Assembly (NCBI RefSeq): GCF_008802405.1
Contig: NZ_VZDO01000020.1
Coordinates: 1-64,000, forward strand
Source: Plantimonas leprariae
GTDB lineage: Bacteria; Pseudomonadota; Alphaproteobacteria; Rhizobiales; Rhizobiaceae
Direction: 5' to 3'
DNA length: 64,000 nucleotides
Position 1 is the stretch's first letter; each line of letters starts with the position of its first letter. A program made the position numbers and the translations under genes. This document shows, one piece after another, positions 35,349 to 56,739 of the stretch. Below the pieces are notes generated by a model. The model had not been told where the DNA came from and searched no databases. It saw nothing but the letters and a program-made list of their open reading frames with translations.

Positions 35349-35693
35349 TCAGGCGACGTTGCGGGCGATCGACTTCAGCGTGTCGGCGACCGACTTCAGC
35401 ATGTTGGTCCGCAGGTTGCTGATCGCCGACCAGGAGTTCATCGCCATCTGCATGGCGAACATCTTCTCGGTATCCGACAGGTTGGCGTTCTGCTCGATTT
35501 CGCGGATGTCCGTCTCGATCTTCTGCATCTGGTCGCCCAGCTGCTTCTGGCGCCAGATCAGGTCGAAGCCGTCGCGGTTGACGTACTTGCCGGTGCTTTC
35601 GCCGACCCAGGTCGTGTCCTTCGTGCCGCCGTTCCAGACCTGCTGGGTGCCCTTGCCCGAGAAGATGCTGGTGGCGTTGCCCGTATTGCTCAT
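35349..35693 (-). CDS. sctF: T3SS needle subunit SctF
   Basis: 114-aa protein. The last 35 residues (AMQMAMNSWSAISNLRTNML then KSVADTLKSIARNVA) match the C-terminal helix of needle subunits, for example the KINKWSVIYNINSTVTRAL...DLMQGILQKI pattern of PscF/YscF. The helical hairpin is formed by residues about 45-75 and 80-112. Needle proteins are usually 75-90 aa; here about 35 extra residues at the N-terminus (Gly/Thr/Trp-rich) would face the needle outside. A strong ribosome site AAAGGGGGA precedes the ATG, as expected for a highly made structural protein. Confidence 0.8.
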   Translation of the reverse strand: MSNTGNATSIFSGKGTQQVWNGGTKDTTWVGESTGKYVNRDGFDLIWRQKQLGDQMQKIETDIREIEQNANLSDTEKMFAMQMAMNSWSAISNLRTNMLKSVADTLKSIARNVA

Positions 35694-35724: not shown

Positions 35725-36006
35725 CTACCCGTTACTTTCCGCCGGCCTGGAAACGGCGACGAGAACGCTTCTGGCGCTGCGTATACCTTCCCTTAACACT
35801 TCGATCGAGCGGAATCGATCCGGTGCTGTGCCGTTTGTCATCTCCAGCGTTAACTCCTCGGCAACCCTGTCGAGACGCGCCATCAGCTCGGCGGCGACAG
35901 TCGGCCCGTCGGGGCCGGCGAGCGCTTCGGAAAGGTCCGTCATCAGGGCGCGCCGCGTCCCCTCCTCGGGGTCGAGCTGCGGCGGCTGGTCGGGGCGGCC
36001 GATCAT
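35725..36006 (-). CDS. Small helical protein upstream of the needle gene, possible YscE-like chaperone
   Basis: 93-aa acidic, mostly helical protein (LMTDLSEALAGPDGPTVAAE; FRSIEVLREGIRSARSVLVA). No family recognised with certainty. In Ysc systems the gene before the needle gene encodes YscE, a helical-hairpin chaperone that together with TPR protein YscG keeps needle subunits from polymerising. The position 31 nt before sctF and the size fit that role. It ends MIGRPDQPP-start proximal to the crp-like gene: only 3 nt separate them, so all three may share a transcript. Confidence 0.5.
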   Translation of the reverse strand: MIGRPDQPPQLDPEEGTRRALMTDLSEALAGPDGPTVAAELMARLDRVAEELTLEMTNGTAPDRFRSIEVLREGIRSARSVLVAVSRPAESNG

Positions 36007-37049: not shown

Positions 37050-39233
37050 GTGTCCTCGCAGCGTGAAGGCATCGTCCTCAAGATCATGACTGGCGTCCAG
37101 TCGGGCGTCGACGTCCGTCTGGTGGACGGCGACTACACGCTCGGTTCCGGCCCCGACGACGACGTTCAGTTCTACGACGTCAGCCTGAAGCCCGGCCATG
37201 CGAAGCTCCGCGTCGCAGGCGGCAAGGTCGAGATCGCCGGGGCGAACGGCGAGTTGCGCACCGCCGCCGGCCTGCATCTCGCCGAGAACGGCGATTTCAC
37301 CGCGCTGGAGCCGCTCGACGTCGTGTCCGCCGGCACCACCCGGTTCGCCACCGGGCCCGCCACCGCCAACTGGGCCTCGATCACCGACGACGCCGGCGTC
37401 GGCCCGGCCGAGGCGCGTCGGACGCCCGCCGCTCCCCGCGCGCAGAGCATCACGTCCCGCCGCCTGTCGCTCGGCCTTTCCGCCGCGGCCGCAGCCCTCG
37501 TGCTCGCCGCGGGCCTCTGGTTCCTCGTGCCGTCCGCCGGCTCCGGCCTCGTCGCCGCCGCGACCGACGCGCGCCGCCCGGTGGAGCGCGTCCGGGACGC
37601 CGTCGCGCAGTTCCCGTTCGGCAAGCGCCTCGCGGTGACGGAGGAAGTCGACGGCACGGTGTTCGTTGGCGGCTACGTGGGCGAGCCGGTGGAGCGTCGC
37701 GCCATCGTCGGCGCGGTGCGCGATGCCGACGAGGCGGCGCGCGTCCGGCTCGTGGTCCTGTCCTCGGCGCGCTCTGAGATCGCGAACCTCCTGTCCGAGC
37801 GCTTCAAGACACTGTCCTTCGCGCTCGACGACAAGGGCGCGGTGACGCTCAACGGCGTGCTCCTCGATCCGAAGCAGGCGGAAGCGGCGGTCGGTCTGGT
37901 GCGCGACGGCGTCGCGGGTCTTTCCTCCGTCGCTTCCGCGATCCGCACCGCCCCGACCCTCCTCGCCGACGTGCAGTCGCTGGCCGAGCGCTCGCGCATC
38001 CGCCCGCTCGTGATCTTCCGGCTGGACGGCAACCTGATCGAGGCGAGCGGCGTCCTGCCGGTGGAGAAGATCGATCCGTGGGTCGGTTTCCTCCAGGCCT
38101 ATTCGACCCAGTTCGCCGACCTCATTCCGCTGCGCTCGCTGGTCAGCCTCCAGAACGCCGACGGCACGATCGGCAAGCCGGGCGAGGTACCGGGCGACCG
38201 CGCCCTCGTGATCGGCAAGGCCGGCGAGCGGCCGGGCGAAACGCCGGTCGACGTCGCGCGGCTCGCCAACGGCAGCTTCGATCTCGGCGACGTCTTCGTG
38301 AACCAGAAGGCCGATGCGGCGGCACACGCCGATCAGCGGAACGCCGCGGCGGAAACCGCCGAGGCAGGCACCACCTCGCCGGCGATCGACCTCGGGGGCA
38401 TGGTGGAAAGGCTCATCGACGGCGGTTCCACCCCGGTGCTCGGCAGCGCGCTCGCCGTGCCGGCGGTCGCCTCGTCGCTCCGCCTCGTCGACGGCAAACC
38501 CGCCCCGCGCATCGTCGGCCACACGACCTGGACCCCGACGCCCACGGCAGAGACCGCCGCAGCCGCTCCGAAGCCGGACCCGGCCGGCGAGAACGCCCGG
38601 CGCGTCGGCGACCTGATCCGCCGCTGGACCGAGAACCGCCTGCCGGCGGACGCCGCCGGACGCGAGATCGGCAACGCCCTTGAAACCCTTTCGGCGGAAG
38701 GTCGGGGCCCCTTGGTCGAACGCTACGCGGCGCTCCAGGCGGACGGCGAGCGGCGGGGCGGCAACGACAACTGCTGGGCCGGCTCGCGCATCACGGTGGC
38801 GCAGCTTCGCAGCGTCGTGTTCTGGCTCGACGTCCTCAGCGTCAACGAGAACCTGACGCTCGCCAGCCTCGACGGCAAGATCCGCGGTCAGGTGCTCGAA
38901 GCGGCGCTGAACCCGGACCGGGTGGCGAGCTGCGCGGCGCGGACGAAGGGCGAGCCGCTGGATTCGCGCTACCTCGCCGAGGTCAAGCGCAATCCGGGCT
39001 TCGTGAACTTCATCACCCGCGACCTGAAGCCCTACGCGCTGGACATCGCCGGAGCCGACCTCACCGCGGATCGCTACGTGCAGACGCGGGCCGGCGACAA
39101 GCTGCGCGAAGGGGCCGCCCCCGACCGCAATAGCCGGATCGCCAGCGTCGGCGATCTCGGGCTCGCCATCGAGAACGACGGCAAGCTTTCGGCGGTGATC
39201 TTCGGCCCGAGCGTCAACTGGGTCATCCGCTAG
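37050..39233 (+). CDS. sctD: T3SS inner-membrane ring protein SctD with FHA domain and long C-terminal extension
   Basis: 727 aa. Residues about 8-95 form an FHA-like cytoplasmic domain (DVRLVDGDYTLGSGPDDDVQF). One membrane helix lies at about 141-162. The periplasmic ring-building region (about 180-400) contains repeated folds such as VFVGGYVGEPVERRAIVGAV and VTLNGVLLDPKQAEAAVGLV, as in YscD. The final 300 residues are an extension not found in usual SctD (about 400-420 aa): a Pro/Ala-rich linker, then a separate domain with two Cys. GTG start 37050 behind GAGGGAAGG. It is convergent with the secretin gene, 7 bp apart. Confidence 0.82.
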   Translation: MSSQREGIVLKIMTGVQSGVDVRLVDGDYTLGSGPDDDVQFYDVSLKPGHAKLRVAGGKVEIAGANGELRTAAGLHLAENGDFTALEPLDVVSAGTTRFATGPATANWASITDDAGVGPAEARRTPAAPRAQSITSRRLSLGLSAAAAALVLAAGLWFLVPSAGSGLVAAATDARRPVERVRDAVAQFPFGKRLAVTEEVDGTVFVGGYVGEPVERRAIVGAVRDADEAARVRLVVLSSARSEIANLLSERFKTLSFALDDKGAVTLNGVLLDPKQAEAAVGLVRDGVAGLSSVASAIRTAPTLLADVQSLAERSRIRPLVIFRLDGNLIEASGVLPVEKIDPWVGFLQAYSTQFADLIPLRSLVSLQNADGTIGKPGEVPGDRALVIGKAGERPGETPVDVARLANGSFDLGDVFVNQKADAAAHADQRNAAAETAEAGTTSPAIDLGGMVERLIDGGSTPVLGSALAVPAVASSLRLVDGKPAPRIVGHTTWTPTPTAETAAAAPKPDPAGENARRVGDLIRRWTENRLPADAAGREIGNALETLSAEGRGPLVERYAALQADGERRGGNDNCWAGSRITVAQLRSVVFWLDVLSVNENLTLASLDGKIRGQVLEAALNPDRVASCAARTKGEPLDSRYLAEVKRNPGFVNFITRDLKPYALDIAGADLTADRYVQTRAGDKLREGAAPDRNSRIASVGDLGLAIENDGKLSAVIFGPSVNWVIR

Positions 39234-39240
39234 GAAGCCG

Positions 39241-41631
39241 TCAGGGCTTCACCACCATCGACGCCTGCTGGATGCCGCTGTTGCCGACCAGCGACGACTG
39301 GATCTGCCGGGTGATCGCCTCGATCTCGTTGGTCTCGCGCGACACGCGCGGCGTGATCAGCACGACGAGCTCGGTGCGGCGAGCCTGCTTCGCCTTCTGC
39401 TTGAACAAGTTGCCGATCACCGGCGTGTCGCCGAGCCCCGGCACCTTGGAGGTCTGGCTGGCGAGGCGGTCCTGGATCATGCCGCCGAGTAGGATCGTGC
39501 GGCCCGATTGAACGAGAACCTGCGACTGGATGTCCCGCGTCGAGATCGTCGGCGTCAGGTCGTCGCCGGTGGTCGAGGCGACCGGCGAGGACACCGACTG
39601 GTTGATCTTCAGGTCGACCGAGTTGTCGGCGTGGATGTCGGGGGTGATCTCCATCACGACGCCGGTATCGAGGATCTCCACCTCGCGCGTCACCGTGACG
39701 TTGCCGAGATTGTTCGACGACTGCGAGGCGGTGGCGAAGGGAATCTGGTCGCCGATGACGAGCCGCGCCGGCTGGCCGTTCACCACCGTCAGGTAGGGCG
39801 AGGAGACGACCTTGACGCCGGTGACGTCCTGCAGGGCGCGCAGCACCGCCTGAACGGTGAAGTTGCCGACCGAGCCGGCGAAGCCGATGATGCCGCCGCT
39901 CTGCGCACCGATCGTGCCCGGCGAGCCGGAGCCGACCGCGAAGCCGTTGCTCTGGAGGAAGAAGGCGACGCCGGAGGATAGCTCGTCGTTCAGCTCGACC
40001 TCCAGCACCGTCGCCTCGATCACCACCTGGCTTTGCGGCACGTCGAGCGCCTTCACCACCTCCACCATGCGGGCATAGGTGCGGTAGGACGAGTAGACCA
40101 GGACGGAATTGTTGCGGGCGTCCGGGATGATGCGTACCTCCTCGGCCGCTGGCGAGGCGGCGCCCTGCCCTCCGCCGCCGCCGCGCGCGGAGGCCTGCTG
40201 GAATTCGGCGTCCCCGCCGTCGTTCTCGCCGCCCGCGCCCTCGCCGCCCCGGCGGGTGCCGCGCGCGTTCAGCGTCCCGGCGTCCGGCCGGGGACCCGCC
40301 ACCGCGCCCGGCAGGAACACGCCGGCCGGCCCCGGCGCCTGGAGCGACGTGCCGTCCTCGTTGTCGACGTCGGGCGCCTGTTGCTGGAAGCGCGGGAACA
40401 GCCGCGAGCGGGAGGCGCGCTGCTCGATGCCGCGGCGCGGCTCCGGCGCGGCAGCCGCGATCGGCGCGGCAGTGCCGCCGAAGCTCTGCGCGAGCTGCGG
40501 CGCGATCTCCTCGGCGCGAAGGTGCGTCAGCGGGATCACGCGCAACGACGACACGTCGGCGACCGAGCGGTCGAGCTGCTCGACCAAAAGCCGGATGCTC
40601 GCCATGAGCTGCCGGTCGGGCGTGCCGACGAGGACGGCGCGCTGCGCTTCGAGCGGCACCACGGTGACGGGCGTCTCGTCGCCGCGCACGGTCGCCGCGT
40701 AGAATTCCGAGAGCTTCTGCGCGACGGCGGTCGGCTCGCTCTGCGCGAGCGGCAGGATCGCGACGGTCTTCTCGCCGGTCGCCATCTGCGACAGGCTGCG
40801 CAGCAGCCGTTCGGTGGATTCGGCCTCCGCCGCGTTCGCCTGCACGATTACGGTGTTCGGCGAGCTCGTGGTGACGAGCCCGACGCTGGGGGGAAGCATC
40901 TTCGAGGCGATCGCGATCACCTCCGCCGCGTTGCCCTTCCCGAGCTTGACGATGCGCCGGTCGTCCTCGCCGCGCGCGCCGGCCGAGGCGTTCTCCTGCA
41001 TCGCCTCGATCACCTCGCGCGAGCCGACATGGTAGACGCCGTTGGCGTAGCGGATGAGCAGGTTGTTGCGGCCGAGGATGTCGCGCACGACGTCGAGGAC
41101 GCGCAGCTTCGGGATCGGCTTCTCGGTGCGGAAGTCGACCTTGCCGCCGAGGTTGTCGGGGGCGATGTAGTTGACGCCGAGCGCGCCGCCGAGAAGCTGC
41201 TTCAGGACGAAGTCGAGCGTCGCCCCCTGGAAGTCGACCGTCACCTCCGCGGCCGGATCGAAGGTCTTCGCGCCGGCGGCCTGCAGGTCGCTGACGTCCT
41301 TGTTCAGGAGGGAGGTGTCCGGCACGTAGTCGATGCGCTGCGGGCCGACGAAGGCCGAGAAGCTCTTGGCGTTCGCGACGGCGCCGACCGAGTTCAGCCT
41401 GTCGATGCGCGGGTTCGAGGCGCGGCGCACCGGCTCGTTGTTCTGCAGGCGCGGCGTCGTACTGCCGGCGCCTTCGACAGTAAGGAGATCGTCTGCCCCG
41501 GCTACGCAGCCGCCGAGCGCCAGCGCGCAGGACAGGAGCGTCGGAACGAAGGCGGCGCGCACTGTCCGCCGGCCGGCACGCGGGGCGGCGTTCGTCGCGA
41601 AAACCCTGGTCGGCATGGAGGGATCGGTCAT
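39241..41631 (-). CDS. sctC: Outer-membrane secretin, GspD-like, probable SctC of this T3SS
   Basis: 796-aa lipoprotein secretin. The signal sequence ends in a lipobox LGGC with the lipid-carrying Cys at about residue 42. Domains: N0 (about 105-185), N1 (190-260), N2 (263-340), N3 (345-560, with a long Gly/Pro-rich insert), then the secretin barrel (about 580-780) with VKVVSSPYLTVVNGQPARL and VPGLGDTPVIGNLF. Four N-domains and the VPGLGDxPxxGxLF motif are GspD (type II secretion) features; T3SS SctC normally lacks N2 and the lipobox. No other gsp gene and no other secretin are in the window. The start could also be ATG 41616. Confidence 0.8.
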   Translation of the reverse strand: MTDPSMPTRVFATNAAPRAGRRTVRAAFVPTLLSCALALGGCVAGADDLLTVEGAGSTTPRLQNNEPVRRASNPRIDRLNSVGAVANAKSFSAFVGPQRIDYVPDTSLLNKDVSDLQAAGAKTFDPAAEVTVDFQGATLDFVLKQLLGGALGVNYIAPDNLGGKVDFRTEKPIPKLRVLDVVRDILGRNNLLIRYANGVYHVGSREVIEAMQENASAGARGEDDRRIVKLGKGNAAEVIAIASKMLPPSVGLVTTSSPNTVIVQANAAEAESTERLLRSLSQMATGEKTVAILPLAQSEPTAVAQKLSEFYAATVRGDETPVTVVPLEAQRAVLVGTPDRQLMASIRLLVEQLDRSVADVSSLRVIPLTHLRAEEIAPQLAQSFGGTAAPIAAAAPEPRRGIEQRASRSRLFPRFQQQAPDVDNEDGTSLQAPGPAGVFLPGAVAGPRPDAGTLNARGTRRGGEGAGGENDGGDAEFQQASARGGGGGQGAASPAAEEVRIIPDARNNSVLVYSSYRTYARMVEVVKALDVPQSQVVIEATVLEVELNDELSSGVAFFLQSNGFAVGSGSPGTIGAQSGGIIGFAGSVGNFTVQAVLRALQDVTGVKVVSSPYLTVVNGQPARLVIGDQIPFATASQSSNNLGNVTVTREVEILDTGVVMEITPDIHADNSVDLKINQSVSSPVASTTGDDLTPTISTRDIQSQVLVQSGRTILLGGMIQDRLASQTSKVPGLGDTPVIGNLFKQKAKQARRTELVVLITPRVSRETNEIEAITRQIQSSLVGNSGIQQASMVVKP

Positions 41632-41810
41632 GGCGTGCCGGCGGGGCGACCGGCCGACGGCAGCGAGGGCATGCGTACACTGCACATCACGGCCTGTTTC
41701 CCCCACGCGGTCGCCTTGCGGTCCGGCGGCGCGGCAGCATCAGGAATGCCGGGCGCCATGAGGTTTAATCGGCCGTCAACTTTGCCCGAACCTAACGTCG
41801 CCGTTCAGAT

Positions 41811-41876: not shown

Positions 41877-43031
41877 TCAGTTCGGCAGGGAACGTCCGGG
41901 CGATCCGGGTCGCTGCGCCGCCGGCTCGCGATGGTCGCCGCCGTCCATGTCGACGACGCCGTGGGGAAGCGGCCCGGCATAGAGCCGGTCGCTGTGGCGC
42001 GCGACCCAGGCCAGCACCTCGGCCACCGCGTCGAACAGCTCGTCCGGGATCGGCTCGTAGAGTTCGGCATCGGCGAAGAGGGCGCGGGCGAGCGCGACGT
42101 TGCGGAACACCGGCACGCCGGCCTTCTCGGCTTCCGTGCGGATATGGTGCGCGTAGGCGTTCCGCCCCTTGGCGGTGACGACCGGCAGCGGCGTCTCGCC
42201 GGGCCGGTAGTCGATCACCACGGCGAAGTGCGTCGGGTTCACCACGACGGCGGAGCCCTTGCGGGCGGCGGTGCCCCCGTCGCCCATCGCCAGCTCGTGG
42301 GCGAGTTGCTTGCGCTTGCCCTTGATGTGCGGATCGCCCTCGCTTTCCTTGTATTCGCGCTTCACCTCGTCCTTCGTCATCATCAGGCTCTTGGTGTGGC
42401 TGTGCTTCTGCCAGGCGAAGTCGGCGAGCGCGACGACGATGAACGCCCCGGCCGAAAGCGACAGCGTCTTCAGGAGAATCGAGGTCGTCACCGCCGCCTG
42501 GCACGGCAGGCCGCAGTCGAGCGAGTTGACGTAGGGGCCGATCGCGTCGCGCACGACGAAGAACAGGAGCGCCGAGAGGAACACGATCTTCAGGACCGAT
42601 TTCAGCAGTTCGACCAACTGCTTCAGGGAGAAGATGCGCTTGAAGCCGGCGGCCGGCGAGATCTTCTCGAGGCTCGGCGCGACGCTCTGGAGCGAGAACA
42701 AGGAGCCGATCTGGACGTAGTTCGCGGCGACCCCAGCGACGATCGCGACGGCCAGCACCGGCAGGAGCACCAGCGCCGCCTCGCGGAAGGCGTGGACGAC
42801 GCCCTGCGGCCCGGCCGTGTCGAAGGGCTGCGTCGCGAGGGTCGCCATCCGGTCGAACAGGCCGACGCAGACCGCGGTGATCCTGCCCCAGGCGAGCCAG
42901 ACATAGGAGACGATCGCGATCAGCGAGATCGTCGTGACGGCCTCGGTGGAGCGGGCGACCTGTCCCTTCTCGCGGGCGTCGCGCTGCTTCTTCGGGGTCG
43001 GGAGTTCGGTCTTCTCGCCGCCTTCGCTCAT
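41877..43031 (-). CDS. sctU: T3SS export apparatus switch protein SctU
   Basis: 384-aa FlhB/YscU family protein. Four membrane helices (about 30-50, 78-105, 145-165, 185-205) precede a cytoplasmic domain. The autocleavage motif NPTH is at residues 265-268 in VVVNPTHFAVVIDYRP; cleavage between Asn and Pro triggers the switch from needle to translocator export. The N-terminus MSEGGEKTELPTPKKQRDAREKGQV is classic for the family. Last gene of the sctI-to-sctU operon; its start overlaps the sctT stop. Confidence 0.95.
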   Translation of the reverse strand: MSEGGEKTELPTPKKQRDAREKGQVARSTEAVTTISLIAIVSYVWLAWGRITAVCVGLFDRMATLATQPFDTAGPQGVVHAFREAALVLLPVLAVAIVAGVAANYVQIGSLFSLQSVAPSLEKISPAAGFKRIFSLKQLVELLKSVLKIVFLSALLFFVVRDAIGPYVNSLDCGLPCQAAVTTSILLKTLSLSAGAFIVVALADFAWQKHSHTKSLMMTKDEVKREYKESEGDPHIKGKRKQLAHELAMGDGGTAARKGSAVVVNPTHFAVVIDYRPGETPLPVVTAKGRNAYAHHIRTEAEKAGVPVFRNVALARALFADAELYEPIPDELFDAVAEVLAWVARHSDRLYAGPLPHGVVDMDGGDHREPAAQRPGSPGRSLPN

Positions 43032-44047
43032 CGCGCCTCTCCCCTGCCCTCGTGGTCCGGCGCCGGCAGCGCGGGATGCGGGACCACCACCGGCGCGGCG
43101 CGTTCCGGAACCGGCGGCAGCGGCACCGGCCGGAGGCTCGGGGCCGCCGGCGCATCGGGGACGGCCGGCGGCGGCGCGCCGGGCGCGGGAGCCGGCTGGA
43201 TCGCCGGCGGTGCGGCCGTGCCCGGCGGCGGGGCGGAGAACTGCATCACCGCGTAGAACTGGTCGATCGCCGGGCGGAAGGTCGCGAGTTGGTCGGTCGC
43301 ATAGGGCAGGAGCCGCGAGAAGTAGAAGATCAGCATGAAGATCGCGAGGCCGCTCTTGATCGGCATGGCGAGGATGAAGACCTGCACCTGCGGCGCGAAG
43401 CGGCTGACGATCGCCAGCGCGAACTCGGCGAGAAACATCACCGCCGCGATCGGCGCCGCGACGATCAGCATGACGCGCAGCGCGTTGTCGGCGACCGCGA
43501 GCGCGAGCTTCGGGAACTCCGGCGACAGGATCGGCAGGCCGCGCGTCGCCGGCCAGAGCTCGAAGGACTGGTAGAGGAGGCCGAGGATGGGCAGCATCGC
43601 GCCGGTCACGTAGACGTAGGTGAGGAAGGCCTGGCTGAACAGGATACCGAGCGGCGAGGTCTCGTGGCCCTGCAAGGGGTCGATCGAGGCGGCGATCGCC
43701 GCGCCCCGCTGGTTGTCGATGAAGGCGCCGGCCGACTGCACCGCCCAGAAGATCCAGCCGACGATGTAGCCGAGCACGAAGCCGATCGCGTATTCCTTGA
43801 AGCCGTAGAAGGCGAAGGACACGACGCTGCGGTCGAAGGCGTCGACATGCGCCATGTTGATCGGCACCGCGATCAGCGAGAGCGACAGGATCGCCGCCGT
43901 CTTCGGCAGGCGCGGCACGGCGGTGTCGGCGAGGAGCTGGCTGACCTGCAGGAAGGCGTAGATGCGCGGCAGCGTCAGGAGAAGCGCGATGATCTCGCGG
44001 TCGAAGAAGCCGAAATAAAGCTTCGCGACGGCCGCGATCTCGCTCAT
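43028..44047 (-). CDS. sctT: T3SS export apparatus protein SctT with proline-rich tail
   Basis: 339-aa FliR/SpaR/YscT family membrane protein, part of the helical SctRST export gate. The core covers about residues 1-265 (GFVLGYIVGWIFWAVQSAGA; PLGILFSQAFLTYVYVTGA; APQVQVFILAMPIKSGLAIF). The remaining 70-odd residues are a cytoplasmic Pro/Ala tail with no counterpart in usual SctT of about 260 aa. The start ATG at 44047 overlaps the sctS stop; the much longer open frame upstream is a shadow of sctR-sctQ. Confidence 0.92.
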   Translation of the reverse strand: MSEIAAVAKLYFGFFDREIIALLLTLPRIYAFLQVSQLLADTAVPRLPKTAAILSLSLIAVPINMAHVDAFDRSVVSFAFYGFKEYAIGFVLGYIVGWIFWAVQSAGAFIDNQRGAAIAASIDPLQGHETSPLGILFSQAFLTYVYVTGAMLPILGLLYQSFELWPATRGLPILSPEFPKLALAVADNALRVMLIVAAPIAAVMFLAEFALAIVSRFAPQVQVFILAMPIKSGLAIFMLIFYFSRLLPYATDQLATFRPAIDQFYAVMQFSAPPPGTAAPPAIQPAPAPGAPPPAVPDAPAAPSLRPVPLPPVPERAAPVVVPHPALPAPDHEGRGEAR

Positions 44048-44310
44048 GTCATGCTCGGGAAGGTGTCGAAGAGCTTGGTGGTGAAGTTCACCATCTCCGA
44101 CCCGAGGAGGCCCGCCATCGCGGCGATGGTGATCGCGACGGCGATGAGCTTGATCGCGAAGGAGACGGTCTGCTCCTGCACCTGCGTCAGCGCCTGCAGG
44201 AGGCTGACGAGGATGCCGACGACGGACGCGACGATGATCGGCGGGAGCGACAGCACCATCACGAGAAGCATGGCTTCCTGGATCTGCTGCAGGGCGTCGG
44301 ACGGCGACAT
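44044..44310 (-). CDS. sctS: T3SS export apparatus protein SctS
   Basis: 88-aa FliQ/YscS family protein with two membrane hairpin helices (about residues 13-42 and 50-75). The family signature VGILVSLLQALTQVQEQTVSFAIK is evident in the loop (for example LLQALTQVQEQT). Four copies join SctR and SctT in the export gate. Starts 9 nt after sctR. Confidence 0.95.
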   Translation of the reverse strand: MSPSDALQQIQEAMLLVMVLSLPPIIVASVVGILVSLLQALTQVQEQTVSFAIKLIAVAITIAAMAGLLGSEMVNFTTKLFDTFPSMT

Positions 44311-44319
44311 GGCTAGGCC

Positions 44320-44961
44320 CTACACGTAGGTCTTCACGAGGCCGAGGATCAGCCGCGACCAGCCGTCGATCATGACGAACAGGAAGAGCTTGAACGGCAG
44401 CGAGATCGTCAGGGGGCTCACCATCATCATGCCCATGGCGAGGAGAATGTTCGAGACGATAAGATCGATCGCGATGAACGGCAGGTAGAGGAGGAAGCCG
44501 ATCTCGAAGGCCTCGCGGAGCTGGCTGACGGTGAAGGCCGGCAGCACCACGGCGATCGAATCCTGCGAAAGCTGCGCCGCCATGTCGGCCGGCCAGAGGG
44601 TGCGGGCGGCTTCGAGGAAGAACATCTTCTCGCGCATCGCCGCGTGGCGGGTGAGGAAGTCGGTGAGCGGCCCCTTGCCGGCCTCGTAGGCCGCCTTCAC
44701 GCCGCCGATCGTGTTGAGGTCGAAGCTCTGCGTCGAGAGGGCGTTGTAGGTCTCTACCACGACCGGCGCCATGATGTAGCCGGACAGGATGATGGCGAGC
44801 GCGTTCAGCGCCATGTTCGGCGGGATGTTCTGGACGCCGATGGCGTTGCGGACGAGCAGGAACACCACCGAGAGCTTGATGAAGCTCGTCGCCACCACCG
44901 CGATGAACGGGAACAGCGCGGCGCCGGCGACGAGCAGGATGAGATTGAGCGGATCGACCAA
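44320..44961 (-). CDS. sctR: T3SS export apparatus protein SctR
   Basis: 213-aa FliP/YscR family protein, five copies per gate. Motifs: SFIKLSVVFLLVRNAIGVQNIPPNMALNALA in the N-terminal half (family core FIKLSVVFLLVRNAIG), and SNILLAMGMMMVSPLTISLPFKLFLFVMIDGW at the end. There is no cleavable flagellar-type signal, agreeing with a non-flagellar system. It lies 18 nt after sctQ. Confidence 0.95.
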   Translation of the reverse strand: MVDPLNLILLVAGAALFPFIAVVATSFIKLSVVFLLVRNAIGVQNIPPNMALNALAIILSGYIMAPVVVETYNALSTQSFDLNTIGGVKAAYEAGKGPLTDFLTRHAAMREKMFFLEAARTLWPADMAAQLSQDSIAVVLPAFTVSQLREAFEIGFLLYLPFIAIDLIVSNILLAMGMMMVSPLTISLPFKLFLFVMIDGWSRLILGLVKTYV

Positions 44962-44979: not shown

Positions 44980-45246
44980 TCAGAGCGGCAGGAGGCGCGT
45001 GATGCGCACGCCGACGCGGTCGTCGAGCCTTACCAGATCGCCCGCCCCGACCGCCTCGCCGTTGACGCGGATCGTCACCGCGACGCCGGGTTCGGTCGCG
45101 GGCGCGCCGAGCGCCACCACGGTTCCCGGCGTCCAGCTCGCGATGGTCGCGAACGGCACGTCGACCCGGCCGAGATCGAAGTCGACCGCCACTGCGATCT
45201 CGTCGAGGCTCCTCGCGGGCGCCTCGGCCTCTGGCGTGTCGGACAT
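44980..45246 (-). CDS. Possible internally started short product of sctQ (SctQ-C)
   Basis: An in-frame ATG at 45246 (MSDTPEAEAPARSLDE) lies just before the C-terminal SpoA domain, with GGAG about 10 nt upstream. It would give an 88-aa SpoA-only protein. Internal translation producing SctQ-C is known for YscQ, SsaQ and Spa33, where it forms part of the pod structure. Position relative to the domain is the same here. Confidence 0.5.
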   Translation of the reverse strand: MSDTPEAEAPARSLDEIAVAVDFDLGRVDVPFATIASWTPGTVVALGAPATEPGVAVTIRVNGEAVGAGDLVRLDDRVGVRITRLLPL

Positions 45247-46026
45247 GGCAGCGGTCTCCGGTCGGAAGCGGACCGGGCGCGGCCGGTCGATAGGACGGGG
45301 GCCGGACGAGGCGTAGCCGCCCTCGACCGGCGAGAACTCGAAGGCGGTCTCGCCGACGCGGACCGTCAGTGAACCGGCGGCCCGCTCCGGCAGCACCGTG
45401 ACGTCGCCCGGCTCCAGCGCCGCGAGTTCCGCTCGCGTCAGCGCGATCGAGCCGAGCGTGATGTCGGCAGGCAGGAGGACGCGCTCGGCGAGCGGCCCGG
45501 CCCGGCGGGACGCCGGGAGCGTATGGCGCGCCAGATAGTCGAGCAGCCATTGCCGCGAGAGGCCGACGAGCGCCGCGATCGGCTCGCGGCTCGCGCTCTC
45601 GATCGTCAGGCGCAGCCATTCGGAGCCGGCCGGGACGGCGCCGGCGCGCGCGAGGCCGGCGACGCGGGCATCGCCCAGGTCGCTGCCGGGCGGAACCAGG
45701 CTGGCGACGAGGGCGAGGACGCCTTCGAGCAGCGCCTCGGCGAAGTCCGGCGGCAGCGCCGCGAGGTCGCCGGGGCTGAGTTCCACCGGGGCGATCTCGG
45801 CGAAGGGAAAGCGCTCGAGCACCGCGAAGACCTCGCCGGCCGGCTCCGCCACGCTTACCCGGCAACCCAGCGTCGCGGTATCAGGGGCGGTCGCGAAGGA
45901 AACCGTGAACGTCCCCGTCGTCAGCGGCAGCGGCTCGCCGGCGAGGCTCGCGAAGGCGTTCCAGAGCTGGAGGCGCGCCGCCGTGCCCTCGCCGTTCTCG
46001 ATGAAGAGCTGCGGCTCGTAGAGCAT
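44980..46026 (-). CDS. sctQ: T3SS cytoplasmic sorting-platform protein SctQ
   Basis: 348-aa C-ring/sorting-platform protein. The N-terminal two thirds are poorly conserved as in all SctQ. The C-terminal 85 residues form the SpoA/SurP2 domain: LDEIAVAVDFDLGRVDVPFATIASW, VVALGAPATEPGVAVTIRVN, and VRLDDRVGVRITRLLPL at the end, like FliN. An upstream SpoA-like segment covers about 185-245 (TLGSIALTRAELAALEPGDVTVLP). ATG 46026 shares its A with the TGA of sctP (TGATG). An internal start is described separately. Confidence 0.88.
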   Translation of the reverse strand: MLYEPQLFIENGEGTAARLQLWNAFASLAGEPLPLTTGTFTVSFATAPDTATLGCRVSVAEPAGEVFAVLERFPFAEIAPVELSPGDLAALPPDFAEALLEGVLALVASLVPPGSDLGDARVAGLARAGAVPAGSEWLRLTIESASREPIAALVGLSRQWLLDYLARHTLPASRRAGPLAERVLLPADITLGSIALTRAELAALEPGDVTVLPERAAGSLTVRVGETAFEFSPVEGGYASSGPRPIDRPRPVRFRPETAAMSDTPEAEAPARSLDEIAVAVDFDLGRVDVPFATIASWTPGTVVALGAPATEPGVAVTIRVNGEAVGAGDLVRLDDRVGVRITRLLPL

Positions 46027-46718
46027 CACGCGCGCCTGCCTGCCAGCAGCGCGCCGATCTCGCCGAGCGCGTCCTCTGCTTCCGAGGCAGCGGGCGCGCC
46101 GGCCGCCTCGAACACCCGGACGACCCGGCTGCGGAAGCGCCCCTGCAGCCGCTCGGCAAGCGCGCCCGCCGCCTCCCGCAGGCCGGCGTCGAGCGTGGCC
46201 GTCGGCGGCACGGTAAGCACGACGTCGAGGCCGTCCGGAGCGATCGCGACCGTCAGGCCGGCGAGGTTCAGGCCGGGAATGCCGGAAAGGTCGATCCGCA
46301 GCGTCGCGCCGGCGCCGCTCCCTTCGCGCGGCAGGGTCGCCAGCGCCGCTTCGACGCGCTCGATCAAAGCCCCGACCTTCGGTGCGGCCTCCGGCGAGAC
46401 GGCGACCGGCGCGGCCATGGCGGCGAAGGGCGAGGCCGCCCGCTCGGCGACGGCGAGGAGCCGCGCTTCGCCGGCCGCTTCGCGCTCCTTCTCGTCCGGC
46501 GCGCCGTCTCCCCCAAGCGCGTGGCGCATGCGTTCGCCGAAGGCGGCCTCGCGGCGGGCGGCGTCGCCGAGCCCGGCCTCGGTGCCGAGGTCGGCATGCG
46601 TTTCGCGCCCGCCCGTCCGCGCCCGCGACAGGGCGGCGTCGAGCCGGCCGTCGCGCCGCCCGGCGGCATCGGTCTGCGGGGACGCGGTCCCGGGACCGTG
46701 GGCGTCGATCCGCGTCAT
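46026..46718 (-). CDS. sctP: Probable T3SS needle-length / substrate-specificity protein SctP
   Basis: 230-aa protein with an Ala/Gly/Arg-rich, low-complexity N-terminal half. A folded C-terminal domain (about 120-215) reads ATLRIDLSGIPGLNLAGLTVAIAPDGLDVVLTVPP (core LNLAGLTVAIAPDGLDVVL) followed by a helix AGALAERLQGRFRSRVVRVF. The latter resembles the FliK/YscP-type T3S4 domain, and the position between sctO and sctQ is that of sctP in Ysc operons. Sequence similarity is weak, so the call leans on synteny. It is short for a needle ruler. Confidence 0.62.
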   Translation of the reverse strand: MTRIDAHGPGTASPQTDAAGRRDGRLDAALSRARTGGRETHADLGTEAGLGDAARREAAFGERMRHALGGDGAPDEKEREAAGEARLLAVAERAASPFAAMAAPVAVSPEAAPKVGALIERVEAALATLPREGSGAGATLRIDLSGIPGLNLAGLTVAIAPDGLDVVLTVPPTATLDAGLREAAGALAERLQGRFRSRVVRVFEAAGAPAASEAEDALGEIGALLAGRRA

Positions 46719-47194
46719 TCGGGCCTCCGGCCGGGTTTGGCGAACATTTCCTCGACCTCGGCCTCCTCGCGATAGGCCACCTCCTCGTCGCGCACGCGCA
46801 CGAGGTCGTCGGTGAGGATGCCGTACTTGTCGCGCACCTTGGTCGCGGCGCGGTAGCGCTCGCCGGCGGCGTCGAGTTCCGTCCTGGTGCGGGCCTCGAC
46901 GTGCCGGGCGCGGTCGCGCTCGTCCTCGAGGATGCCGTGTGTCTTGAGAAGATCGAGGGCGCGGCCCTTCGCGTCCTCGAGGTCATCGAGCTTGACGGTG
47001 CGGCCGAGGAGCGCGCCGAAGATCGCGTCCTCGCGGGAGGCGAGCGTCGCGAGGCTGGCGGCGACCTCGGCCTCGGCGGCGCGCGTCTCGGCCATCGCCG
47101 CTTCGTTCGCCTGCCGCTTCTTCTGCAATTCGCGGAAGGACTGCTCCTGCTTCAGGTGCTTGACGCGCAGCAGCGTCTGCATCTGCCCGATCAT
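46715..47194 (-). CDS. sctO: T3SS stalk protein SctO
   Basis: 159-aa FliJ/YscO family protein made almost entirely of two long antiparallel coiled-coil helices (about 3-75 and 80-150). It starts [20 protein letters not shown], close to the YscO/InvI start pattern. Such proteins enter the SctN hexamer and link ATP hydrolysis to the SctV gate. ATG overlaps the sctN stop, its own stop overlaps sctP. The longer open frame upstream is antisense-like shadow of sctN. Confidence 0.85.
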
Positions 47195-48579
47195 CGCGTT
47201 ACCGCCGCCAGCTTGTCGATCACCGTCCCGAAGGCGTCGAACTCGTCGGTCCGCTGCTGCAGGAAGGCGTTGATCGGCTTGTATTTCGCGATGGCGAGGT
47301 CGGAATCGGCGTCCGAACCCTTCTTGTACTCGCCGACCTTCACCAGAAGCTCGACATCGGCATAGGCGGCGAGCCAACCGTTGACCTTCGCCGCCATGGC
47401 ACGGTGCTCGCGGGTCGTCACCGCGTTCATCACGCGGCTTTTCGAGGCGAGGACGTCGATCGCCGGGAAGTGGTTGGCGGAAGCGAGCTTCCTCGACAGG
47501 ATGATGTGGCCGTCGAGGATCGAACGCGTCTCGTCGGCCACCGGCTCGTTCATGTCGTCGCCCTCGACGAGCACGGTGTAGAGCGCGGTGATCGAGCCCT
47601 TGTCGTTCATGCCGACGCGCTCCATCAGCCGCGGCAGGTTGGCGAAGACGGAGGGCGGGAAGCCGCGCCGCGTCGGCGGCTCGCCGGCGGCAAGGCCGAT
47701 CTCGCGCTGCGCCCGGGCGAAGCGCGTCACCGAGTCCATCAGGAACAGCACCTTCTGCCCCTGGTCGCGGAAATATTCGGCGATGGCGGTGGCGGTGAAG
47801 GCGGCCTTGGCGCGCTCCATCGAGGAGCGGTCGGAGGTCGCGACGACGATGATCGATTTCGCCAGACCCTCCGGCCCGAGGTCGTGCTCGATGAACTCGC
47901 GCACCTCGCGGCCGCGCTCGCCGATGAGCGCCAGCACGGTGACGTCGACCTCGGCGCCCTTCACCAGCATGGAGAGGAGCGTCGACTTGCCGCCGCCGGC
48001 CGCGGCGAAGATGCCCATGCGCTGCCCCTCGCCGCAGGTGAGGATGCCGTCGATGGCGCGAACGCCGAGCGGCAGCGGGCTGTCGATCACCCGCCGCTTC
48101 ATCGGGTCCGGCGGGTCCTGATAGACCGGGTAGTAGGCGGCCGGCGCGAAGGGTTCGTCCTTGCCGTCGACGAAATTGCCGAGCCCGTCGAGGACGCGGC
48201 CCTTCAGCCCCGGCCCGACCCCCACCGCCTGGACGCGGCCGGTGCGGCGCACTTCGGTGCGCGGCGAAACGCCTTGCGTGTCGCCGATCGGGGAGAGCAG
48301 CGCCTCCTCGTCGAGAAAGCCGACGCATTCGGCGAAGAGCCGGACGCCGGACTGGCGATTGTGCAGCTCGACGATCTCGCCGATCTGGATCTCGGGAACG
48401 GCGGCGTGGATGATCGTTCCGACGACTTTCCGCACCCGGCCGGTGACGCCGAAGGCGGTGAAGCGCTCAACCTCGGTGGCGAGCCGGCCGGCGAAGCCGC
48501 CGAGCGCGGTGCCGATACGCTGGCGACGCTCGTCGGCAAGCTCGCGCGCGTCGGGGCCGGGAGGCGCGGCAGCCGTCAC
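47191..48579 (-). CDS. sctN: T3SS ATPase SctN
   Basis: 462-aa F1-like hexameric ATPase that strips chaperones and unfolds substrates. Walker [11 protein letters not shown] is at about residues 191-200, Walker [21 protein letters not shown] at about 275-294, and the family signature [21 protein letters not shown] follows. The stretch [21 protein letters not shown] is T3SS rather than F-ATPase type. Translationally coupled to sctL (4-nt overlap) and sctO. Confidence 0.95.
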
Positions 48580-49211
48580 TGCGCCGCCTCGGGCACGATA
48601 GTCGCCGCGGCGCGCAGCGCCCGTTCGAGATCGGCAAGTCCGCGGCCCATGTCGCCCTCGACCCGGCCGACCGCGGTTTCCACCACGATCTGCGGCGGCG
48701 TCAGCGTCTCGTCCTCGACGACGTCGACGAGCTTGATCTCGGGAAAGTCCGCGACGATCGCGTCGACGGCCTCCTTCAGCGTGGCGAACTGCGGCGGTGA
48801 GACGCGAAGCTCGGCCTTCTTCTCGCGCCGCATCTGGCGGAGCGCCGTGCGCACCAGCGTTTCGGCCTTGGCGCGGTCGTCGAAGTCGTCGATGAGCCGG
48901 CGCACCGCTGCGACCACGATGTCGGACAGCGCGCCCTCCAGCCCGGCCAAAGTCCGATCCAGCGTCTCGCTCTCGCCGAGAAGGCGTTCCACCGCCTCCA
49001 GCCGCGCGGCGGCGAAGCCTTCGTCGTAGCCGCGGCGCTTCTCCGCCTCGAACGCGGTCTCCGCCGAGGCGACGATCTCGCTCGCGCGTGCTTCGGCGGC
49101 GACGACGAGCGCCTCGCCGGCTTCCACCGGCTCGAAGCTTCCGCGCTTCAGGACGTGCGCGCCGGAACCGAGCCGGAAGCCGAGATCGTTCAGCCGATAA
49201 TAGCCGGCCAT
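48576..49211 (-). CDS. sctL: T3SS ATPase regulator/stator SctL
   Basis: 211-aa FliH/YscL-like protein. Long helices in the first half ([32 protein letters not shown] in pieces: [18 protein letters not shown]) connect the ATPase to the sorting platform. The C-terminal globular part contains [15 protein letters not shown] and [21 protein letters not shown], then [29 protein letters not shown], which are family hallmarks. It overlaps the sctK end by 22 nt. Confidence 0.88.
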
Positions 49212-49897
49212 GACGGCACTCTCCGGCGCAGGAGCTTCAGAACGGCCGCGCGCTCGGCCTCGTCCAGGACGCAGTCACCCTCGACGGCGAAGCGGGAGCA
49301 CGCGAGGTGGCCCAGTGCCGCGTCGACGCCGGCGGCGAAGCGGGCGAGGAGTTCCAGACCGAAATCGGCGAGGCGGCGCGCGGCGTGGGCGGTGTCGTCG
49401 CCAGACACGACGCGCCAGACGACGGGATCGCGCTCCAGCGCGGCGAGGCCGGCATGGAGGGTCGGCGCTTCCTGCGTCGCGATGCCGAACGCTTCCGCCC
49501 CGAGCACGGCGCGCAGGCGCTCGCGATCGGCCCGGAGGACGACCTGCAGGACGCGCTTGTGCAGGACGGCGGCGGCGAGGAGACGGCCCGCGCCTTCCAC
49601 GACGGCGCGCGGTTCGCTGGCGACGAGCGCCGCCATGCGGCCTTCGGGCGCGGCGAAGAGCACCGCCATGCGTCCGGCGGACAGGCCCGGCCAGTTGCGC
49701 TCCCGCGCCAGCAGTGCGCCGAGCGGCCGGCGGAAGGCCGGATGGGCGGCGAGCGCGGCGACTTCGCCGGCGGCAAGCGTGCCCCGGCCGGCGGTGGCGG
49801 ACAGACCGTCGCGCGACAGGCAGGCAGCCGCGAGGCGCGCCGCAAGCGCGAAGCCCTGCCCGTCCAGCCGCACGCCGTTCTCCCCCTGCCCCACCAT
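49190..49897 (-). CDS. sctK: T3SS sorting-platform accessory protein SctK
   Basis: 235-aa, Ala/Leu/Arg-rich helical protein. It corresponds in position (between sctJ and sctL) and size to YscK/PscK, which bridges SctD to SctQ. Visible segments: [23 protein letters not shown] and a C-terminal basic helix [16 protein letters not shown]. Similarity at the sequence level is low, as usual for SctK; the call relies mainly on synteny. Confidence 0.7.
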
Positions 49898-49911: not shown

Positions 49912-50742
49912 TCAGGAGGGTTCCATGAGGGCGGTGCCGGGCTCGGCGGTCCGCGCCTTGGCGCGCTTGCGCCCGCGCGTCACGGCCATCGCGACGGTGC
50001 CGGCGAGCGCCATCACCAGCACCGCGACGATGCCGGCCGCCGCATAGGCGATGTTCCAGAACCGCCCGACGTCGCCGCGCGCGACGGATAGTCCCGGCAG
50101 CACTTCCACCATGTCGGAGGCCGCGCCGGCGGCGGTCGGCACCTTGCTCGGCATCGCCTCGGTCAGCACCACGGTGACGGAGGCGTAGTCGAGTCCCTCG
50201 ATCGAGCTCGACACCAGCCGGCGGATCTGCGGCACAAGGAATTCGAGATCGACGTTCGGCTCGTGCTTGATGAACACGGCGGCGGAGGACGGGCGCACCG
50301 GCTGGCCGAGCTGCGGCTCCTCCGGCAGGACGATATGGACGCGCGCCGTGACCACTCCGTCGATCTGCGAGATGGTCTGCGCCACCTCCTCGCCGAGGGC
50401 GTAGATGTAGCGGACGCGCTCCTCGAAGGGCGAGGAGATGATGCCCGACTTCTGGAAGACCTTGCCCATCGATTCCCGCGTGTTGCGGGGAAAGCCCTTC
50501 TCGTTCAGGAGTTCGATGGCGCGCTGCATGTCGTCCTTCTCGACCGACAACGTAAAGGCCTCGCCGACACCCTCCTTCTCGGCCGACAGCCCGTTGGCCA
50601 TCAGGACGGCCAGCATCTGGTTGGCCTCGAACTCGGTGAGGTTGGTGTAAAGGTCGGACTTGCAGCCTGCGAGCAGCAGCGCCGCCGCGATCGCGAGGCC
50701 GCCGAGCGCGCGGCGCAGGGCCGGCACGGCGGGCACGGTCAC
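49912..50742 (-). CDS. sctJ: T3SS inner-ring lipoprotein SctJ
   Basis: 276-aa YscJ/PrgK/EscJ family protein. The lipobox LLAGC places the lipid-bearing Cys at residue 27. Two ring-building folds follow: KSDLYTNLTEFEANQMLAVLMANGLSAEK (start LYTNLTEFEANQMLAVLM) and VTARVHIVLPEEPQLGQPVRP to SSAAVFIKHEP. A C-terminal membrane helix lies at about 225-250 with a basic cytoplasmic tail. GTG start 50742 overlaps the sctI stop. Confidence 0.95.
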   Translation of the reverse strand: MTVPAVPALRRALGGLAIAAALLLAGCKSDLYTNLTEFEANQMLAVLMANGLSAEKEGVGEAFTLSVEKDDMQRAIELLNEKGFPRNTRESMGKVFQKSGIISSPFEERVRYIYALGEEVAQTISQIDGVVTARVHIVLPEEPQLGQPVRPSSAAVFIKHEPNVDLEFLVPQIRRLVSSSIEGLDYASVTVVLTEAMPSKVPTAAGAASDMVEVLPGLSVARGDVGRFWNIAYAAAGIVAVLVMALAGTVAMAVTRGRKRAKARTAEPGTALMEPS

Positions 50743-51227
50743 TGCCCCTTCATCAGCGTGTCGAACACCGCCGTGGTCTTGCCGGTGAGCTTGGACGAGA
50801 CGTCGACGAGAAGGGTGAAGTTCACCATCTCGACCTGCATCTCCATCATCGACGTGGCATCGACGCTGCCGCGCTTCATCAGATCGCCCACATGGGCTTC
50901 CCGCGCGTCGAACATGGTGCGGAGCTTCGACAGGCCGTTCAGGATCATGTCGCCGCCCTCGCCCGCGACGGGCGGCACCGCAGGCGCTACTGGTGCGGCC
51001 GGCCCGAGATCGAGGCCGATCCGGGCGCGATCCACCGGCGAAAGCTCCGCCGTCCGCCCGGCCTCCGCCACCCGCTCGGCACCGCCCGTCTGCGCGGCTT
51101 CGGCATGACGGGCAAGAGCGGATTCGAATCCCGCGACGCGCTCAGGCTGCGCGACGGGCGCAGCCGGGGCCGAAGGCGTGACGAGCGGCGCGGCTGCGGC
51201 GGCGGAACCAAAAACGGGCGCGACCAT
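50739..51227 (-). CDS. sctI: T3SS inner rod protein SctI
   Basis: 162-aa protein. The C-terminal 55 residues (SMMEMQVEMVNFTLLVDVSS then KLTGKTTAVFDTLMKGQ) match the SctI/YscI helix that packs onto the export gate and adapts it to the needle. The N-terminal 90 residues are Ala/Pro-rich and disordered; most SctI are 80-115 aa, so this one is long. First gene of the coupled sctI-J-K-L-N-O-P-Q-R-S-T-U run; a promoter should lie in the 335 bp upstream. Confidence 0.88.
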   Translation of the reverse strand: MVAPVFGSAAAAAPLVTPSAPAAPVAQPERVAGFESALARHAEAAQTGGAERVAEAGRTAELSPVDRARIGLDLGPAAPVAPAVPPVAGEGGDMILNGLSKLRTMFDAREAHVGDLMKRGSVDATSMMEMQVEMVNFTLLVDVSSKLTGKTTAVFDTLMKGQ

Positions 51228-55240: not shown

Positions 55241-55630
55241 ATGCGCATCAAAGGCCTCGATATCGGCGTCGAATCGGTCAGCCGCTTGCAGGTGGAGGAC
55301 GAGGTCCACCTGCCAGCGGAGGGCCGCCTCGCGCCAGCCTTCCTGCCGGAATACCGCGCGCTGGACTCCATCCTGAACCGCCCGTCGCTCGACGAGCGCC
55401 TGCCGGACCTCCTCCTGCCGCAGGGGCTCGACCCCGACCTCCTCGAACCGGCTGTCCTTTCCCGCACCCGCGAGGCGGCGGCGGCGCTGTTCCGCGAGCT
55501 GTCGCGCGCGGGGAGCGGGCGATCGTCCGAGGACCGGCGCGCCTTCGCCGCCGCCGGCGACCTTCTCGCCGAGGACATGGGCCTGGACGAGGAGGTGCGC
55601 GCCGCGCTCGCTCTTCTCCTGCGCGGATGA
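55241..55630 (+). CDS. sctX: T3SS export factor SctX (YscX family)
   Basis: 129-aa protein. It begins with a YscX-like MRIKGLDIGVESVSRL (compare HIGIEKLSAISLE), has an LPxxG segment and a mid Pro-rich part, and ends AFAAAGDLLAEDMGLDEEVR to ALALLLRG. This parallels YscX LQAAAALLKCQQDDDRLLQI to ILNLLHKV. YscX is itself exported, binds YscY and the SctV gate, and exists only in Ysc-type systems. The next gene, overlapping by 4 nt, is its expected partner, which strengthens the call. Confidence 0.72.
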   Translation: MRIKGLDIGVESVSRLQVEDEVHLPAEGRLAPAFLPEYRALDSILNRPSLDERLPDLLLPQGLDPDLLEPAVLSRTREAAAALFRELSRAGSGRSSEDRRAFAAAGDLLAEDMGLDEEVRAALALLLRG

Positions 55631-56141: not shown

Positions 56142-56690
56142 ATGTCGATCCTCAACAGCCGCTTCACCGACCGCGAGACTCTCCAGGACGCGCACGCCTT
56201 CGCCGCCCAGCTCGTCGACGGGGCTTTCGAGCATGCCGAACTCGACGAGCGCCAGAAGAGCATCGTCGAGCTGATGGGCGAAGGCCTGTCGCTGGCGGAC
56301 ATCTTCGGCATCACCAAGGACGAGCTCGACGCGCTGGTGAACCAGGCCTGCCTGTTCATCCAGGCCGGCGACACCGCCAAGGCGCGCGACGTCCTGACGA
56401 AGCTCGCCCAGCTCGAACCGACCGACGAGCGCGGCTCCTACCTTCTCGGCACGACGTTCCAGATGGAAGGCGACCTCGAACGCGCCGTGTTCTTCTACAC
56501 CCGCTTCCTCGCGCTCGACGCGACGAACCCGGAAGGGTACCTGCGCCTCGGCGAATGCCTGATGACCGCGGGCGAGCGGAACGAGGCCACCGCCGCCTTC
56601 CGGACGGCGCTCGACTTCGCCCGCGAGGGCAAGGGGCGGCCCGGCAACGCCGAGCATGCCGAACAGATGCTCGGCCTCCTGGCCGCCTGA
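56142..56690 (+). CDS. Class II translocator chaperone, SycD/LcrH family
   Basis: 182-aa protein with three TPRs. The N-terminal LMGEGLSLADIFGITKDELDAL part (compare SSDTLEQLYSLAF of SycD) precedes repeats ALVNQACLFIQAGDTAKARD, GSYLLGTTFQMEGDLERAVF and GYLRLGECLMTAGERNEATA. The concave TPR groove binds both hydrophobic translocators until export. The YopB-like and YopD-like genes directly follow, which is the invariant SycD arrangement. AGGGAGC precedes the ATG. Confidence 0.88.
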   Translation: MSILNSRFTDRETLQDAHAFAAQLVDGAFEHAELDERQKSIVELMGEGLSLADIFGITKDELDALVNQACLFIQAGDTAKARDVLTKLAQLEPTDERGSYLLGTTFQMEGDLERAVFFYTRFLALDATNPEGYLRLGECLMTAGERNEATAAFRTALDFAREGKGRPGNAEHAEQMLGLLAA

Positions 56691-56739
56691 CGCTCTTTTC
56701 ACCCTTTCCTTTCGGCCACGCGGCCCGGAGCTCATTCCC

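Follow-up and report, generated by a model that had tools for sequence, protein, structure and literature searches.

Introduction

Three recruitments of a secretin by type III secretion systems (T3SSs) are described in the literature: one like the secretins of type II secretion systems (T2SSs) in Chlamydiales, one from Tad systems in the Rhizo family, and one possibly from T4P in the rest (PMC3459982, PMC3973906, PMC3574062, PMC8780523, PMC6668835). Abby and Rocha, 2012 (PMC3459982) report that the chlamydial secretin CdsC clusters with T2SS secretins and has a large unique N-terminus; it is held to be an independent gain by a secretin-less ancestor. In the rhizobial systems, according to PMC3459982 and PMC3973906, the secretin was replaced: RhcC2 derives from Tad, and the N-domain of SctC survives as a linker in RhcC1. 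Abby and Rocha (PMC3459982) propose that RhcC1 was retained because the Tad secretin lacks an N-domain that meets SctD. Self-piloting is reported for HxcQ of Pseudomonas aeruginosa, a liposecretin.

We analysed a Ysc-like T3SS locus of Plantimonas leprariae in a stretch of 64,000 nucleotides (contig NZ_VZDO01000020.1, positions 1 to 64,000; hereafter the window). It is highly probable, judging from sequence comparisons, that the outer-membrane ring of this injectisome is a secretin of type II (GspD) descent. Searches of the open-access literature, supplements aside, gave no report of Ysc-like T3SSs in this group that have a secretin of the GspD type.

The T3SS locus and its secretin

The secretin gene has an intact reading frame and encodes the sole secretin of the locus (Table 1). 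A GTG at 41706 is an alternative start, which would give a protein of 821 aa (39241-41706, minus strand). The gene is convergent with sctD, and sctU lies upstream on the same strand, so that the placement between these two genes given in the preliminary description is correct. Its statements that the locus holds no other secretin and no other gsp gene also agree with our searches: the genome was searched for secretin domains, and none of the tested T2SS proteins of three reference systems matched the window better than E 0.009.

Table 1. Features of the T3SS locus in the window
Feature	Coordinates	Strand	Basis
GspD-type secretin, proposed SctC of the T3SS	39241..41631	-	796 aa from ATG at 41631
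Signal peptide of a lipoprotein, with the lipobox Cys at residue 42	41506..41631	-	sequence; Cys invariance
N0-N1-N2 and first part of N3	40477..41235	-	TIGR02517 from residue 133; colinear with solved GspD chains
Low-complexity insert in N3, 113 residues	40138..40476	-	row comparison
Secretin core domain PF00263	39343..39837	-	Pfam match
VPGLGDTPVIGNLF secretin motif	39403..39444	-	sequence
SctD (727 aa), protein of the inner-membrane ring with a long extension at its C-terminus	37050..39233	+	PF16697 over cut-off; TIGR02500 74.4 of 86 bits
Conserved clade-specific C-terminal region of SctD	38661..39230	+	profile searches
GspC HR-like last part of SctD	about 39018-39230	+	profile comparison
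SctU	41877..43031	-	TIGR01404 393 bits
SctT (start uncertain)	43028..43993	-	TIGR01401
SctS	44044..44310	-	PF01313
SctR	44320..44961	-	PF00813
SctQ, ORF exceeds matched part	44980..46986	-	TIGR02551 99.0 of 100.8 bits; PF01052
SctN ATPase	47191..48579	-	PF00006, PF18269
SctL	48576..49211	-	TIGR02499 over cut-off
SctK candidate, by position only	49190..49897	-	between SctL and SctJ; without Pfam match
SctJ	49912..50742	-	TIGR02544 228 bits
SctI	50739..51227	-	PF17001
SctF needle subunit	35349..35693	-	PF09392 E 1e-11
YscE-like needle co-chaperone	35725..36006	-	PF08988
YscX	55241..55630	+	PF09474
SseC-family (YopB/SctE-type) translocator	56656..58005	+	PF04888
SctV, extends beyond window end	63550..64000	+	PF00771 754 bits at contig 63616-65622

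TPR proteins are also encoded in the window. A 729-residue protein at 53023-55212, without a Pfam match, has matches in the T3SS loci of two other genomes (G613 and G621) and is possibly a tip or secreted component. Past the needle gene, an ORF of 409 residues (33977-35206) is perhaps, by position, the gatekeeper SctW.

The genome (4.77 Mb, 39 contigs, estimated 100% complete) contains two secretin-domain matches, the window secretin and one at C11:231898. About 3 kb from the latter is an ATPase of the T2SSE family, the single one in the genome to exceed its cut-off. Because this ATPase scores only 47.5 bits against the GspE model (cut-off 630), we take it to be a CpaF-like Tad ATPase. No GspE-grade ATPase was found in this genome, and a genome-wide search, a check proposed in the preliminary description, revealed neither a T2SS missing its secretin nor a second SctC. 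With the other secretin next to a CpaF-like ATPase and no GspE, there appears to be no T2SS for the window secretin to serve.

Related systems

SctT was detected (E up to 1e-32) in 35 of 397 genomes of the same order. In eleven of the 35, counting the window's own, a full-length secretin similar to GspD shares its contig with T3SS genes, and the same-genus genome G002 is a twelfth; their secretins form clade A in the trees below. Each of the 12 secretins has one or more T3SS genes on its contig. In G002, G621 and G689 this contig differs from the one carrying SctT; the secretin is found with SctR/SctQ in G621 and with SctD in G689. The G002 assembly is 65% complete; its secretin (48-54% identical) and a convergent sctD form a pair as in the window, and another contig carries sctU, T, S and R at 68-90% identity and part of sctQ at 39%. 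A distinct second GspD, in a stretch with GspE, is present in G475, G510, G633, G689 and G002, and the remaining seven clade-A genomes yielded no further GspD of full length. Clade B comprises seven rows from plasmids of Bradyrhizobium, Rhizobium gallicum, R. etli IE4803, Mesorhizobium huakuii and Sinorhizobium garamanticum. The preliminary description had suggested a capture in this genome; the capture is supported, but it is not peculiar to the genome, being common to 12 related T3SSs, and seven rhizobial-plasmid T3SSs carry a second GspD-type clade.

A Tad-like secretin is on seven other T3SS contigs of the order. Genome G665 (89% complete, 550 contigs) has SctT and the SctD extension described below, and no secretin was found there, which counts against a replacement of SctC by GspD. 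The retrieved stretches of four further T3SS loci (L050, L052, L134 and L136, of G004, G016, G684 and G565) yielded no secretin. Genes annotated as RHS and TcdB-like flank a T2SS cluster on a Neorhizobium petrolearium plasmid (L144).

Domain architecture of the secretin

The GspD model TIGR02517 matches the window secretin from residue 133 over model positions 2-600 of 600, with 329.5 bits. This is below the curated cut-off of 351.35 bits, a point against GspD descent. The PilQ profile scores 160.8 bits, and the SctC profile (TIGR02516) 115.3 bits over the C-terminal half only, below its cut-off of 238.45 bits. In contrast, the SctC of Nitratidesulfovibrio vulgaris DP4, a canonical SctC of a Ysc-like T3SS with the same place in the machine and related core genes, scores 587 as SctC and 143 as GspD. 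E-values against the GspD model are 2.4e-97 or lower for all 12 clade-A members, and seven exceed its cut-off (G475, G633, G510, G756, G731, G613 and G002, the last with 355 when joined); for the 10 aligned members the best E-values are 2.5e-33 for SctC and 1.7e-53 for PilQ. Clade B passes the GspD cut-off in 5/5 tested (356-380 bits).

A profile of the 10 aligned clade-A members is colinear with solved GspD chains over residues 137-402 and then about 475-774 (best 5wln, E 3.3e-70), so that N0, N1, N2, N3 and the core are covered and the gap between the two segments corresponds to the N3 insert. The SctC chains MxiD (E 2e-11) and InvG (E 1e-10) match this profile at the core tip only. The Pfam GspD N0 family matches 9/10 members; it does not match the window protein at E 0.1. 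Clade-A secretins have 251-257 residues between N0 and the N3 insert; the values are 241-244 for clade B and 246-261 for 22 T2SS rows. SctC has no N2 domain; since the spacing in clade A is that of T2SS GspDs, N2 is retained. The N3 insert of the window secretin has 113 residues, against 20 to 110 in the 22 T2SS rows, and the tail after the core measures 19-57 residues in clade A and 21-55 in T2SS rows. In the secretin motif, V730, P731, P737, G740, L742 and F743 are invariant in 10/10 aligned members. The four N-domains, the long N3 insert and the motif named in the preliminary description are thus all present. N0-N3, the N3 insert, a lipobox and a short C-terminal tail are also what alphaproteobacterial lipobox GspDs have; the window secretin differs from these in having no T2SS partners and in being encoded in a T3SS locus.

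Phylogenetic position of the secretin

A secretin-domain phylogeny, as the preliminary description had proposed, places the protein among GspDs and not with SctC. The core-domain tree (LG+C20 PMSF) has 83 rows and 271 columns; the rows come from 108 secretin ORFs, many of them the same gene fetched twice. Eleven distinct rows were left off (L023, L054, L066, L083, L087, L088, L096, L099, L102, L103 and L133), of which L054 and L133, unplaced, sit in T3SS loci of another type. Clade A (12/12 rows, all T3SS-linked) and clade B (7/7) are each supported at 100/100. Both belong to a 49-row GspD clade (95/87) with 19/22 T2SS rows and 11/13 unassigned GspD-like rows, and clade A falls within mainly alphaproteobacterial GspDs. 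Among the 22 T2SS-labelled rows, GspK is the single match in the stretch of L129, and GspE lies just outside the stretch of L059. The T2SS rows outside the GspD clade are E. coli GspD, XcpQ and G002's own. SctC rows fall into one clade (99/93) in 12 of 13 cases, the remaining row (L086) being placed with long-branched PilQ and pIV rows, and RhcC2 joins Tad. Rows L024-L026, labelled PilQ, are probably MshL-type.

Forcing clade A together with SctC is 61 log units worse (p-AU 0.00057), and forcing A and B together with SctC is 71 log units worse (p-AU 3e-10). The approximately unbiased (AU) test on the former rejects kinship with SctC. Two features of the trees count against a GspD origin: the stem branch of clade A is long, and the clade is nested in T2SS GspDs in the core-domain tree (95/86) versus branching first in the full-length tree of 52 rows (80/28), which was also computed without L073 and L065.

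Co-inheritance with the T3SS core genes

The T3SS core tree was built from SctV, N, U, T, R and S with 47 rows; five canonical rows had been dropped as too empty at an earlier step, and C_G169, C_G234, C_G130 and N_G570 were omitted from the tree itself. For some SctC carriers in it, SctV is on a different contig from SctC. The tree has long branches at the flagellar outgroup and 11 rows of odd letter make-up. The same 12 systems form clade A at 100/100, and clade B is again found at 100/100. Both lie in a 28-row Ysc-like clade (100/100), whose internal order is poorly resolved, together with nine rows from SctC carriers, namely N. vulgaris and eight genomes belonging to the same class as the window's; the Rhc systems and two Burkholderiaceae systems are outside. 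With SctC carriers inside this clade, the simplest reading is a replacement of SctC in an ancestor that possessed it.

Within clade A, the secretin and core trees share 8/9 splits (core domain) or 7/9 (full length), and their distances correlate at 0.81 or 0.92, respectively (p 0.0001). This agreement of splits and distances indicates co-inheritance rather than repeated swapping, suggesting that a lipidated GspD displaced SctC and was inherited with the machine. The window secretin is the sole secretin of its T3SS locus and is co-inherited with it, and its position and co-inheritance together point to a role as the outer-membrane ring.

A profile of 12 SctCs was used to search 13 locus sets (10/12 of clade A, the window's 90-kb contig included, and 3/7 of clade B). 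No SctC or RhcC1-like remnant was found in them; the profile matched only the C-terminal part of the GspD-like secretin. As controls, the same search returned the RhcC1-type N-domain protein beside RhcC2 in an Rhc system and the SctC of N. vulgaris. No separate SctC-type N-domain gene was found on the window contig, in contrast to the split RhcC1/RhcC2 arrangement. The adapter is retained in the Rhizo systems; here there is a single full-length GspD. A linker would be unneeded after the exchange, because GspD has its own N0.

The lipid anchor

The preliminary description had called the secretin a lipoprotein, and this prediction is strengthened by comparison: Cys42 in the lipobox ALALGGC is invariant in 10/10 aligned clade-A members. 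By a simple rule a lipobox is present in 10/12 rows of clade A, 5/7 of clade B and 18/22 of T2SS, and in 2/13 SctC, 0/7 RhcC2 and 0/3 Tad rows. The two clade-A failures (L104 and L106) keep the Cys after ALALPG. A lipobox invented within the T3SS is ruled out by the 18 T2SS rows that have one, and, since it is common among T2SS rows, the anchor probably arrived with the secretin. It would take the secretin to the outer membrane via Lol, as for HxcQ, and a separate pilotin would then be unneeded. The two proteins are alike in their N-terminal lipid anchor; HxcQ, however, works in a T2SS.

The C-terminus of SctD

Seven clade-A SctD ends, found directly, have a conserved C-terminal region in common, for which the same search gave no match in clade-B, SctC-carrier or Rhc loci. 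With the best 8 or fewer candidates scored per genome, so that weak cases were possibly missed, a profile of this extension detected it in 13 of the 397 genomes (11/11 sampled clade-A genomes, G665 and G732) and in none of the other 23 SctT genomes. The extension is absent from 3/3 clade-B SctDs examined, the GspD-type secretin of that clade notwithstanding, which counts against a link to the exchange. Comparison with Pfam and solved structures gave chance-level matches only, and a single-sequence AlphaFold2 model of the SctD end (pLDDT 49) was set aside. The match in G732, a 2.7 Mb genome, is at G732:C53:3237-3707 (L221); SctT there is below the limit, and the genome may hold a divergent T3SS. 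In G621, SctD is split between two frames near the linker (L114:9980-12610), through either a sequencing error or a real break.

The HR domain of GspC contacts the N0 domain of GspD. The last ~75 residues of SctD score 20.7 against the T2SS HR and 25.6 with MshK-like rows added, and the decoys, which are other secretion proteins and not a fold library, reach maxima of 20.3 in 240 and 18.7 in 120; 0 or 1 of 120 decoys equal the score of the SctD ends. The whole SctD region scores 22.2 against the T2SS-only HR, with 1/240 decoys higher. We compared four sets of SctD C-termini (besides the window's, L120, L122, L123, L147 and L067). The hhalign probability of HR for clade A is 16-55% for the SctD end and 9-32% for the whole region, weak values that count against an HR-mediated docking of the secretin; it is 82-90% for Rhc, 25-40% for canonical and 5-28% for clade-B ends. 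An HR-like end thus seems general to SctD, and these ends suggest a common way of meeting secretin N0. A GspC HR captured together with the secretin is ruled out, as Rhc, canonical and clade-B SctDs are alike in this respect, Rhc more strongly. Because other SctDs have it too, the HR likeness is no mark of this capture, and only the ~110 residues before the HR-like part are clade specific.

Alternative explanations and a model

An orphan T2SS or pilus secretin that lies beside the T3SS and serves another machine, such as a Tad pilus, would account for the GspD-like sequence, and the genome does encode a Tad-like secretin and ATPase. This is very unlikely: the Tad-like locus has its own secretin, GspE is missing from the genome, the secretin is on a contig with T3SS genes in 12/12 members, and the secretin and core trees agree. 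We give even less credence to a true, fast-evolving SctC that merely looks like GspD. The long stem branch and the match of the SctC profile would fit such a protein, but the N0 to N3 spacing is GspD-like, the AU test rejects a union with SctC, and the best solved-structure matches are GspD chains. A component swap common to a clade is well supported.

How often it occurred is less clear-cut. Two separate captures, one in clade A and one in clade B, have a somewhat less than even chance. A and B are separate clades with full support in both the secretin and the core trees, and the three examined clade-B SctDs are without the extension. Against this, a union of A and B is not rejected (11 log units worse, p-AU 0.136, for the core domain; 2.8 log units, p-AU 0.247, for the full length), and the first core-gene tree joined them at 63/51. 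It is nearly an even matter whether the SctD extension is a mere clade trait unrelated to the exchange. Clade B has the secretin without it, and within one clade the co-occurrence of extension and secretin is possibly one event; on the other hand, the extension occupies the C-terminus of SctD, which according to Abby and Rocha (PMC3459982) meets the secretin N-terminus.

In the replacement that we favour, which the sequence comparisons support, a GspD, probably of alphaproteobacterial origin and lipidated beforehand, seems to have replaced SctC in an ancestor of at least 12 related T3SSs and then to have been inherited along with the T3SS core genes. Its N0 would dock on the periplasmic C-terminus of SctD, HR-like as in GspC, and the clade-specific part of SctD would adapt that protein's ring in the inner membrane to a secretin whose N-rings (N0-N1-N2-N3) number one more than those of SctC. 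We tentatively propose that this is a fourth (perhaps also a fifth) injectisome secretin recruitment, in addition to the three cases of Abby and Rocha, and that the exchange was complete: SctC would have been displaced outright by an alphaproteobacterial GspD that pilots itself, enabled by an SctD end that was already GspC-HR-like and meets N0 in both machines, and the SctD extension would then have grown to fit the extra N2 ring. CdsC likewise clusters with T2SS secretins, but the present exchange seems to have overwritten a lineage that stands among SctC carriers. The preliminary description had spoken of a further, independent capture; independence from the Tad-derived Rhizo case follows from our tree, and that from the chlamydial case rests on the placement given by Abby and Rocha (PMC3459982).

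The locus offers a case, with trees for both sides, of a secretion machine adopting and retaining the channel of another, and two concrete candidates for what lets secretins move between machines are the contact of N0 with HR and a lipid pilot within the secretin itself. There is also a consequence for annotation. In the rhizobial records examined such secretins are named General secretion pathway protein D, type II/III secretion system protein, or secretin N-terminal domain-containing protein, and because of these names T3SSs with a GspD-type secretin appear to lack SctC.
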